Below, piece by piece: positions 10,061-24,487 of a stretch of 64,000 nucleotides of DNA (position 1 is the first letter of the stretch; every line of letters begins with the position of its first letter). The translations under genes were made by a program, and so were the position numbers. The stretch spans positions 1 through 64,000 of the forward strand of contig JAEUKX010000014.1 in assembly GCA_016794025.1 (NCBI GenBank), given 5' to 3'. This DNA is from Rhodospirillales bacterium. Its GTDB lineage: Bacteria; Pseudomonadota; Alphaproteobacteria; CACIAM-22H2. A model generated the notes under the pieces. That model saw nothing but the letters and a program-made list of their open reading frames with translations, was not told the origin of the DNA and did no database searches.

Positions 10061-11005
10061 ATGACAGCCCCGACCACCGCCGACAGCCGGACCATCGCAG
10101 CCGTTCGCCATTTCACGCGGTTCTTCACGCGGCGCATCGGCGTCCTGCGCCGCCGGCTCTACGCGAGCCCCTTCTCGCTCGTCGAAGCCCGGGTCCTCTA
10201 TGAAATCGCGAATCGCCCCGGCACGTCGGCCGGCGAAGTCGCACGGGATCTGGGGCTCGACCCCGGACAGCTCAGCCGCACACTCGAAGGTCTCGTGCGA
10301 CGGGGTCTCGTCCGTCGCCGCAGGGCTGCCGCCGATGCCCGCCGCCATGCCCTGACTGCGACACCGCGCGGGGTCGCCGCATTCGCCGCACTGGATCGCG
10401 CCTCGCGCGAGGAGGTGGCCGCACTTCTCGCATCGCTGGATGCGGACGGCCGCGACCGGCTGGCCGCCTCGCTTGCGGCTGCGGAGCGCCTGCTGGAGCC
10501 GGCAAGACTGTCAGCGGGAGAATTCGTCCTTCGTCCCCACGCGATCGGCGACATGGGCATGATCACCGCCGCGCAGGCGCGGCTCTATGCGCGGGAATAT
10601 GGCTGGAACGGCGAATTCGAAGCGCTGGTTGCCGAGATTGCCGCGAAGTTCATCCGTGAATTCGATCCGGCCCGCGAACATTGCTGGATCGTCGAGCGTC
10701 GGGGCGAAATCGCCGGTTCGATCTTTCTCGTGAAGGAGTCGGAAAGCGTCGCCAAGATCCGCCTCGTCTATCTGGAATCCTGGGCACGTGGCGCGGGGCT
10801 CGGGCGGCGCATGCTCGATGAATGCCTCGCCTTCGCGCACGACAAGGGCTACGCGAAGGTCGTTCTCTGGACGAACGATTGCCTTGTCGACGCGCGCCGG
10901 CTTTACGAGCGCGCCGGATTCGTGCTCGTCAGGAGCGAGGCGCACCACAGCTTCGGCAAGGATCTCGTCGGCCAGTACTGGTCGCTCGACCTAGCGGCGC
11001 GCTAG
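10061..11005 (+). CDS. MarR-family regulator fused to a GNAT acetyltransferase
   Basis: 314 residues. Residues 1-150 form a MarR winged helix (VLYEIANRPGTSAGEVARDL, GLDPGQLSRTLEGLVRRGLV, then the wing RRRAAADARRH). Residues 160-314 form a GNAT N-acetyltransferase with the acetyl-CoA loop ARGAGLGRRMLDE and the C-terminal ARRLYERAGF. Known fusions of this type couple a small-molecule-modifying enzyme to transcription control. The substrate and target genes are unknown. A TTGAC/GTCAA palindrome lies just upstream. The stop shares CTAG with the facing YHS gene. Confidence 0.9.
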   Translation: MTAPTTADSRTIAAVRHFTRFFTRRIGVLRRRLYASPFSLVEARVLYEIANRPGTSAGEVARDLGLDPGQLSRTLEGLVRRGLVRRRRAAADARRHALTATPRGVAAFAALDRASREEVAALLASLDADGRDRLAASLAAAERLLEPARLSAGEFVLRPHAIGDMGMITAAQARLYAREYGWNGEFEALVAEIAAKFIREFDPAREHCWIVERRGEIAGSIFLVKESESVAKIRLVYLESWARGAGLGRRMLDECLAFAHDKGYAKVVLWTNDCLVDARRLYERAGFVLVRSEAHHSFGKDLVGQYWSLDLAAR

Positions 11006-11439
11006 CGTTCGGCCGACACGGTCGGCCAATTGGCTGCCGCACGCGCGATGAAGGCATCGCGGTCGGCCAGCCATTGGGTGCGGACCGACTTGCTGTAGTT
11101 GAGATAGAGGACGCCTTCGACGATCGTCCAGGCGTCCGGATCGATCGGCGCCTTGTAGCCGTGCGCCATGCCATAGGCGCAGTAGCCGCCGAATCGCGGC
11201 GCATAGCGCGCGGGTTCGGCAAGAAACGTGTCGCGGTTCGCGCGCGAGACGAACAGCCACCGCGCACCATCCCAGTCCGCATAGTGGGCCGTCGAACCGC
11301 GCCGCGCCCGGCTTTCGCTGAAGTAGGCGACCGGATCGTATCCTCCGATCGCAAGCCCGCCCCGCGCATTGAACGGGGCCGCGCAGGCCGGTGTGGCGAC
11401 AAGGATGGCGAGACCGGCAAGAACGCTGCGACGATGCAT
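11002..11439 (-). CDS. YHS-domain exported protein
   Basis: 145 residues with a signal peptide (HRRSVLAGLAILVATPACA). The mature part has the YHS pattern GGYDPVAYF, then GARWLFVSRANRDTFLAEPARYAPRFGGYCAYG, often found near metal-handling functions. The paired HH/Cys ligands of metal-binding YHS proteins are only partly visible (one Cys), so metal binding is uncertain. It is separated from the LysR/trxB genes by an sRNA locus with a strong terminator, so it probably has its own promoter. Confidence 0.82.
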   Translation of the reverse strand: MHRRSVLAGLAILVATPACAAPFNARGGLAIGGYDPVAYFSESRARRGSTAHYADWDGARWLFVSRANRDTFLAEPARYAPRFGGYCAYGMAHGYKAPIDPDAWTIVEGVLYLNYSKSVRTQWLADRDAFIARAAANWPTVSAER

Positions 11440-11474
11440 GTCCTGTTGTTCGCACGGCCGGTGGCCGGCGTTAC

Positions 11475-11506
11475 AAAAAAAACGCCCGGTGCTTGCGCAC
11501 CGGGCG
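11475..11506 (-). terminator. Intrinsic terminator of the small RNA
   Basis: Ten-base perfect stem CGCCCGGTGC/GCACCGGGCG with a 4-base loop (11506-11483), followed on the minus strand by eight T (11482-11475). The strand is fixed by the T-run. It stops minus-strand transcription before the YHS gene. Confidence 0.9.
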
Positions 11507-11610
11507 AGTTGAACAGGGAGGCTTCACGTCTGGGAGACGCAGGGTCCGGAGGGGACCCCGTCCGGGCTGCGAAGCCCGGACCCGCCGAAATCAGGTCTTT
11601 CGGCTGACCA
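11475..11610 (-). ncRNA. Probable trans-acting small RNA with anti-Shine-Dalgarno loop
   Basis: Read on the minus strand, a run of five hairpins ends in an intrinsic terminator. The arms are GCCGAAA/TTTCGGC (11604-11584), GTCCGGGC/GCCCGGAC (11581-11560), GGGTCC/GGACCC with loop exactly CCTCC (11558-11542), CGTCT/AGACG with loop CCC (11539-11527), a single-stranded stretch holding GCCTCCC, and the terminator. CCUCC in loops is the hallmark of several alphaproteobacterial sRNAs that bind ribosome sites. The 5' end is not fixed; an AT-rich zone at 11640-11690 could hold the promoter. I cannot match it to a named family. Confidence 0.6.
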
Positions 11611-11735
11611 GCGTCGCCAAAGCACGTTTGTGCAACGCGACACCAATACTCACCTAGATAATCTAAAGAATGCCTTAAAAAATGGCATTAATCGCATGCG
11701 AGACATGAGTCGTTCGCATACCTACGAATTTACCG
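11611..11735. other. AT-rich spacer with two inverted repeats between the small RNA and the LysR gene
   Basis: Contains AATGCC...GGCATT (11669-11689) and ATGCGA...TCGCAT (11696-11719). No T-run follows either on the minus strand, so they are not clear terminators for the LysR gene. The region may carry the sRNA promoter. No coding sequence seen. Confidence 0.4.
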
Positions 11736-12635
11736 TTAAAATTGCGTTTCGCCCACCTTTTGAACGAGATAGTCGCGGAACACGGCAATACGCTTGGAGC
11801 TGCGCAGTTCCTCCGGGTAGACAAAATAGGCCTCGTAGGTCGGCCCTTCGAGCTCCGGCAGGATCTGGACGATCTTCGAACTCTGCTGGGCGATGTAGTC
11901 CGGGAAGGCCGCAATGCCGATTCCGTTCTCCACGGCCCGAAGGATCGCCGACACGTTGTTGACCATCAGCGTCGGCACGCGCCGCCGACCGCCGGTGGTG
12001 CCCACCTCGAGCAGCCAGTTCACGTTGGGGAATGGCGGATTGGGATCGTCGCCGTAGACGATGAGGCGGTGGCTGTCCAGATCGCCCGCCGTCTTCGGCG
12101 TCCCGAATTTCTTCAGGTAATCCGGATTGGCGAAAACGTGGACATGGACCGACAGCAGGTGCCGCTGGATCAGATCGGCCTGCCTTGGCGGATGCATCCG
12201 GATCGCGCAATCGGCCTCCCGCATGCCGAGGTCGAGTTCGCGATCGTCGACCCGCATGCTGATCTGGACGTCCGGATAGGCCTCGGTGAACTCGCGCAGC
12301 CTCGGCGCCAGCCAGACCGACCCGAACGCCACGGTCGTCGTCACGCGCAGCAGGCCGGAAGGCCGTTCCTTCGTTTCGGCAAGCTGTGCCTCGACGAGCG
12401 CAAGCTTGTCGAACACGTCGCGCACGGTGTTGAACAGCAGCTCGCCCTGTTCGGTCAGGATGAGACCGCGGGCATGCCGGTGGAAAAGCGGCGCACGGAC
12501 GGATTCCTCGAGCGCCGATATCTGCCGGCTGACGGCCGACTGGCTGAGATTGAGCTTCTCGCCGGCATGCGTGAACGAGCCAGCGGCGGCGACCGCATGG
12601 AAGATGCGCAGCTTGTCCCAGTCCATGGCCGACAT
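11736..12635 (-). CDS. LysR-family transcriptional regulator
   Basis: 299 residues. The N-terminal winged helix is at residues 5-65 (LRIFHAVAAAGSFTHAGEKL, then LSQSAVSRQISALEE). A LysR substrate-binding domain follows (LRVTTTVAFGSVWLAPRL). It lies 36 bases downstream of trxB on the same strand, a pairing common in alphaproteobacteria, so co-transcription is likely. It lacks the paired redox cysteines of OxyR (one Cys, in EADCAIRM), so the effector is unknown. Confidence 0.9.
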   Translation of the reverse strand: MSAMDWDKLRIFHAVAAAGSFTHAGEKLNLSQSAVSRQISALEESVRAPLFHRHARGLILTEQGELLFNTVRDVFDKLALVEAQLAETKERPSGLLRVTTTVAFGSVWLAPRLREFTEAYPDVQISMRVDDRELDLGMREADCAIRMHPPRQADLIQRHLLSVHVHVFANPDYLKKFGTPKTAGDLDSHRLIVYGDDPNPPFPNVNWLLEVGTTGGRRRVPTLMVNNVSAILRAVENGIGIAAFPDYIAQQSSKIVQILPELEGPTYEAYFVYPEELRSSKRIAVFRDYLVQKVGETQF

Positions 12636-12671: not shown

Positions 12672-13640
<969 letters not shown>

Positions 13641-13649
13641 CGGACTCGT

Positions 13650-13680
13650 CCTGCTATGCGTCGGATGCAAACCTAGCAGG
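13650..13680 (-). promoter_or_regulatory. Hairpin in the trxB leader, next to the ribosome site
   Basis: On the minus strand, CCTGCTA (13680-13674) pairs perfectly with TAGCAGG (13656-13650), and an inner TGC/GCA stacks on it. The 3' arm touches the purine-rich ribosome site, with the ATG ten bases further. Such a leader could modulate translation; this is inference. Confidence 0.35.
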
Positions 13681-24357: not shown

Positions 24358-24457
24358 CGTCCGCAATCCTCCCGCAAAAGCCCACAATTCGGGCTTCCGG
24401 AAGGCAGTGCTTGGACGACGGATCGTCTGGGGAAATTGCGGGGCGACTGCCGTTAGC

Positions 24458-24487
24458 CCCGCGCGGGTTTCTATATTCCCGCGCGGG
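24458..24487 (-). promoter_or_regulatory. Twin CCCGCGCGGG palindromes flanking an AT-rich decamer
   Basis: Two copies of the self-complementary decamer CCCGCGCGGG (24458-24467, 24478-24487) are separated by TTTCTATATT. On the minus strand the centre reads AATATAGAAA and contains the -10-like TATAGA. The SOD-rhodanese start lies about 100 bases downstream and the acid-phosphatase stop 24 bases upstream. It could be an operator pair over the operon promoter, or a terminator-like hairpin for the phosphatase gene (no T-run). Confidence 0.4.

Follow-up and report, generated by a model that had tools for sequence, protein, structure and literature searches.

A conserved alphaproteobacterial small RNA gene, missing from Rfam, follows an LsrB/VtlR ortholog and probably encodes an AbcR-type regulator

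A run of hairpins on the minus strand of a Rhodospirillales genome, at 11475-11610 of the 64,000-nt stretch of DNA analysed here (the window; contig JAEUKX010000014.1), raises the question of whether it forms a regulatory RNA in its own right or belongs to a neighbouring gene and, if the former, what it regulates. An initial annotation had proposed an independently transcribed small RNA (sRNA) distinguished by a CCUCC hairpin loop. Considering its fold, conservation, setting and predicted targets, we give a probability of roughly 0.77 to the reading that the locus encodes an uncatalogued, AbcR-type, trans-acting sRNA, which would be independently transcribed, activated by LsrB and able to repress the translation of transporter mRNAs. 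The features of the locus, in the direction of transcription, are:

12672..13670, minus strand: trxB, thioredoxin reductase, upstream of lysR (Pfam Pyr_redox_2; same order in relatives and in A. tumefaciens, PMC7486931)
11736..12635, minus strand: LysR regulator, LsrB/VtlR ortholog and presumed activator (PDB search and tree)
11702..11722, minus strand: candidate LysR-type box GGTATGCGAACGACTCATGTC, ATG-N9-CAT, its centre ~64 nt upstream of the inferred start
11655..11660, minus strand: -10-like TATCTA (from sequence; alike in near relatives; no good -35)
11475..11648, minus strand: predicted sRNA transcript, ~174 nt, its start placed from the TATCTA box to +/- 5 nt
11613..11641, minus strand: 5' hairpin GTCGC...GCGAC, the sixth, lineage-specific (from the fold of 11648-11475)
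11584..11604, minus strand: hairpin 1, GCCGAAA/TTTCGGC (sequence and fold)
11560..11581, minus strand: hairpin 2, GTCCGGGCT/AGCCCGGAC (sequence and fold)
11541..11559, minus strand: hairpin 3, GGGGTCC-CCTCC-GGACCCT, loop exactly CCTCC (11552-11548), closing pair G-U
11526..11540, minus strand: hairpin 4, GCGUCU-CCC-AGACGU, closing pair G-U, with a conserved CUCCCAG loop segment
11507..11525, minus strand: single-stranded GAAGCCTCCCTGTTCAACT / GAAGCCUCCCUGUUCAACU, between hairpin 4 and the terminator, presumed mRNA-pairing seed
11475..11506, minus strand: intrinsic terminator CGCCCGGTGC-GCAA-GCACCGGGCG, 10 bp and U8 (stem-loop 11506-11483, eight T 11482-11475)

Folding of 11648-11475 gave -91.5 kcal/mol (z = -5.78), a stability that none of 200 shuffled sequences equalled, and recovered all five hairpins together with the sixth, 5' hairpin (11641-11613). 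The five tandem hairpins, the 10-bp terminator with its eight U (11604-11475 in all) and the CCUCC that makes up the whole third loop were as originally described, and so was the C-rich single strand before the terminator, which holds CCUCCCUGUU within 11525-11507. This terminator was the sole one detected by a terminator scan of 11430-11760 (shuffles, 0.5). Since it stands between the RNA and the downstream YHS-domain gene, a role as leader of that gene was ruled out. A sigma-70 consensus scan found no minus-strand promoter and no -35 consensus; from the TATCTA box and the 5' hairpin, we place the probable transcription start near 11648, which would give an RNA of about 174 nt.

A DNA search matched the RNA, mainly over its 3' half, in 70 of 143 relatives. 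A covariance model built from 32 sequences (R1) was run on 387 alphaproteobacterial genomes and detected the RNA in 204 at E<=1e-3; about 150 still passed at E<=1e-10, and single genomes held as many as six copies. These counts and the z-score of the fold place the feature beyond chance. The window RNA scores 99 bits with R1 over 11566-11475, and neither the DNA search nor the covariance model found a second copy in the source genome. When 299 genomes were drawn from the phylum, four weak matches fell outside the class, all at the noise level of <=27.5 bits as compared with up to about 100 inside it, where the weakest matches were not relied on. By these scores, the RNA is confined to Alphaproteobacteria.

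What has been kept within the RNA was assessed in 115 distinct sequences, which were chosen by tolerant match to the conserved core, so that the conservation figures are biased upwards. The conserved parts are hairpin 4, with its CUCCCAG loop, and the single-stranded GAAGCCUCCCUGUU: CCTCCCTG is invariant (115/115), the next T is present in 112 and the following T in 110, and GTCTCCCAGACGT of hairpin 4 is exact in 93. The CUCCCAG segment contains CUCCCA, which is the M1 motif of AbcR. Compensatory base changes in related genomes, a check proposed with the initial annotation, do occur in the stems, as strong covariation in the terminator and as a few changes in hairpin 4. Hairpin 3 is absent from the consensus fold because the alignment slips there, and it was therefore measured sequence by sequence; a stem of at least 5 bp was present in 100 of 115, built from many different sequences, but support for it is only moderate since shuffled stretches also gave such a stem in 172 of 575 cases (about 30%). 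The exact CCUCC loop, which had been presented as the headline feature, occurs in three of the 115 sequences, those of the window and of the two relatives closest to it, and the commonest loop is UUCG (43/115), on a changing stem. The CCUCC loop is therefore lineage-specific and was rejected as a functional element; it is hairpin 4 and CCUCCCUGUU that are conserved instead.

The strong terminator and the several stable hairpins before it might suggest a structured element that serves the trxB-lysR operon as terminator or mRNA stabilizer, with no trans-acting function. However, the longest invariant stretch is the unpaired CCTCCCTG, which a terminator would not need, and copies without lysR exist, as do complementary sites enriched at start codons (see below), so that we consider such an element highly improbable.

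The sRNA gene comes after trxB and lysR on the same strand, which is the position of ar15/AbcR downstream of trxB-LsrB/VtlR; the order in A. tumefaciens is trxB-vtlR-abcR1-abcR2 (PMC7486931). This trxB-lsrB-sRNA setting, i.e., the abcR neighbourhood of Rhizobiales, had been overlooked in the initial annotation. The best PDB match of the window LysR was 9HH1, the LsrB of A. tumefaciens (E 2e-100; next structure, 1e-32), and in a tree it formed one clade with LsrB and the other LysR proteins of this setting (100/99), separate from two paralogs encoded in the source genome. Judged by this search and tree, the window LysR is orthologous to LsrB/VtlR. When 90 sRNA loci homologous to this one were compared, an ortholog of the window LysR preceded the sRNA on the same strand in 66 (at <=500 nt in 63), and the sRNA lay away from lysR in 24. 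When the gaps after 42 lysR relatives were inspected, nearly all Rhodospirillales-like loci with enough contig carried the RNA. At the same position, Nitratireductor has ar15/AbcR (45.3 and 41.9 bits, above the Rfam cut-off of 40), and six Rhodobacterales loci have SorY-like RNAs with CCUCCCUGUUGGACU directly after the lsrB ortholog (45-58 bits, below the SorY cut-off). No such RNA was found at the Paracoccus lsrB orthologs (L069, L070, and L071), where another gene closely follows lysR.

For LsrB a redox pair has been proposed, C144/C273, of which the window protein keeps the first (C143, its one cysteine) and lacks the equivalent of C273; redox sensing by this pair is therefore not to be assumed for the window LysR. 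Among the LsrB orthologs checked, a second cysteine at the C273 position occurs only in those of Rhizobiales, which suggests that redox sensing by the pair was a later addition. The window also encodes, at 10061-11005 on the plus strand, a MarR regulator domain fused to a GNAT acetyltransferase domain.

LysR-type activator sites are usually found about where the candidate box is centred, ~64 nt before the inferred start. The window box is an imperfect palindrome, with GGTATG as its left half and CATGTC as its right half. Among 81 non-redundant LysR-adjacent loci, a YATG-N9-CATR palindrome, mostly ATGC-N7-GCAT, was found upstream in 68 (shuffle mean 1.0, maximum 3), and it also stands upstream in 12 of 22 family loci without lysR nearby (shuffle mean 0.35). 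The published VtlR box is GCAT-N3-TG-N3-T (PMC7486931). Since there is no -35 consensus, activator-dependent transcription would be the natural reading. L076, L080, L092, L105, L106, and L120 lie away from lysR with the palindrome still upstream, and these could possibly be LsrB-controlled paralogs acting from other places.

These upstream sequences also bear on whether the RNA is derived from a 3' UTR, i.e., processed from, or the tail of, the trxB-lysR mRNA, without a promoter of its own, much as SorX of R. sphaeroides has been described as 3' UTR-derived. Such an origin would agree with the location close downstream of lysR on the same strand, with the lack of a sigma-70 consensus promoter, and with most members scoring best against the SorX model of Rfam, though below its cut-off. 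However, the palindrome lies within the gap between lysR and the sRNA, and it precedes copies that do not adjoin lysR; moreover, AbcR and SorY have promoters of their own (PMC8844928, PMC8307010). A 3' UTR origin thus appears unlikely, and, given the conserved upstream control region, the first claim that the RNA is not the tail of a neighbouring gene is probably right. Of the regulator originally envisaged, the sRNA gene itself, its anti-Shine-Dalgarno character, and a conserved control region of its own are upheld, while the CCUCC loop is not the key to it.

Candidate targets were sought by pattern searches of genomes. The complement of the seed, AACAGGGAG, occurs 12 times in the source genome, as compared with 3 for its reversed control; one of these sites is the sRNA gene itself, and seven others are found 6-9 nt ahead of a start codon. 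Of the genes concerned, two encode branched-chain-type binding proteins (Peripla_BP_6); the remaining five were assigned from their sequence alone, as genes for a TctC-like binding protein, a PhaB-like reductase, GcvH, an aldo/keto reductase, and an efflux adaptor. Across the family's 15 genomes, AACAGGGAGN{3,9}ATG was found 105 times vs. 40 for the permuted ACAAGGGAG control (2.6 times), with the excess in the same direction in all 15. The corresponding counts in four genomes without a detected sRNA copy were 2 and 8 (Fisher p = 0.0014, to be taken as a guide only, since the genomes are related and their site counts are not independent). The 84 target proteins with AACAGGGAGN-type sites are mostly periplasmic binding proteins, and Peripla_BP_6 or SBP_bac_5 domains are present in 30 of them vs. 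1 of 37 controls. Other binding-protein families are common among control sites as well, and because transport-protein genes are frequent there too, part of the apparent preference for transport genes comes from strong ribosome-binding sites.

An enrichment of merely 2.6-fold, in a setting of trxB and the redox-linked LsrB (PMC11975290), might also be expected of a titrating or decoy RNA, or of one with mainly a single redox-related target, as opposed to many transporter mRNAs. Since the complementary sites lie mainly before genes for substrate-binding proteins, like the targets of AbcR and SorY, we judge either to be very unlikely.

If the RNA is an AbcR-type repressor, the LsrB/VtlR ortholog would bind the ATG-N9-CAT palindrome before the start and activate transcription of the sRNA. 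Probably with Hfq, which is encoded in the source genome, the sRNA would expose CCUCCCUGUU between hairpin 4 and the terminator, along with a second element, the CUCCCA of the hairpin 4 loop. Both could base-pair with mRNAs at ribosome-binding sites of the AACAGGGAG type, mainly in messages for the periplasmic substrate-binding proteins of uptake systems of the ABC, TRAP, and related types. Such pairing would block their translation, and the most likely function is the silencing of nutrient-uptake genes through covering of ribosome-binding sites.

The RNA was also compared with known sRNA families. At gathering level, the Rfam covariance search proposed with the initial annotation found no family on the 11475-11610 feature and, in 20 homologous loci, none except an unrelated int-alpA RNA; all of the nearest models stayed below threshold. 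Sub-threshold matches to beta-proteobacterial toxic sRNA, NsiR1, and anti-hemB were rejected since the terminator and short C-rich runs account for them. Membership of ar15 (RF02345; cut-off 40 bits) was likewise ruled out, with no match in the source genome even at E<=10. Nevertheless, the RNA resembles AbcR1/AbcR2 in its place after trxB-lsrB/vtlR (PMC7486931), in its putative upstream LysR-type activation site and the CUCCCA (M1) in a hairpin loop, and in a second unpaired C-rich motif, the terminator, and its predicted transporter mRNA targets (PMC5461406, PMC8844928). It differs in that CCUCCCUGUU replaces GUUCCC/UUCCCCUC (M2), GUUCCC being absent, in that no extra hairpin separates the second motif from the terminator, and in having different hairpins ahead of these elements.

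SorX (RF02784), which is described as acting on a polyamine transporter mRNA (PMC7074977, PMC8307010), is the nearest model in most members (30-45 bits, relatives up to 44.8; window, 24.3) because CUCCCUGUU precedes the terminator in both, and its cut-off of 46.6 was reached nowhere among the sequences tested. Unlike the window RNA, SorX is described as 3' UTR-derived and lacks the conserved ACGUCUCCCAGACGU hairpin. SorY (RF02651) of Rhodobacter, which is described as acting on a malate transporter mRNA (PMC8307010), is a shorter RNA to which the window scores 19.9 bits; its gathering score of 111 was reached neither there nor by the Rhodobacterales loci, whose SorY-like RNAs share the place after lsrB. 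SmelC671, compared by its published description, likewise carries CUCCCUGU, flanked there by variable hairpins and a terminator, but it is described only in Rhizobiales (PMC3927594). MmgR/suhB (RF00519), also a small sRNA of Alphaproteobacteria, carries an anti-Shine-Dalgarno loop and gives weak matches on some members (30-37 bits), but the source genome has a separate, clear copy of it (55.8 bits; L166, G000:C112:28401-28485, plus strand). By Rfam's own cut-offs, the RNA is a member of none of AbcR, SorX, and SorY, and its exact seed string was not found in the literature searched. By analogy, it may work as AbcR and SorX/SorY do, through C-rich unpaired seeds, on transporter mRNAs, and under a stress- or nutrient-linked regulator.

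In sum, the locus holds a genuine sRNA gene of a familiar kind, widespread but missing from Rfam. Work on AbcR and its regulator LsrB/VtlR has treated them as a system of Rhizobiales linked to symbiosis and virulence, and LsrB was called unique to Rhizobiales in a 2025 paper (PMC11975290). Contrary to that statement, many further alphaproteobacterial families have LsrB orthologs preceded by trxB and followed by a C-rich sRNA. With such units outside Rhizobiales, the system would predate its host-linked roles and extend beyond them, and the LsrB/AbcR switch described in rhizobia, Agrobacterium, and Brucella may be common to the whole class. AbcR and the SorY-like RNAs are joined by one shared position, and we see about even odds that an LsrB-type regulator with an LsrB-activated CCUCCC sRNA silencing uptake systems was an ancestral alphaproteobacterial unit, of which AbcR (Rhizobiales), the SorY/SorX-like RNAs (Rhodobacterales), and the uncatalogued family described here would be descendants. 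The covariance model, the candidate regulator box, and the candidate target list are available for direct tests. Elsewhere in the window, 24404-24461 on the minus strand matches the chrB-b RNA motif (RF03086) at 53.7 bits (cut-off, 36.5).
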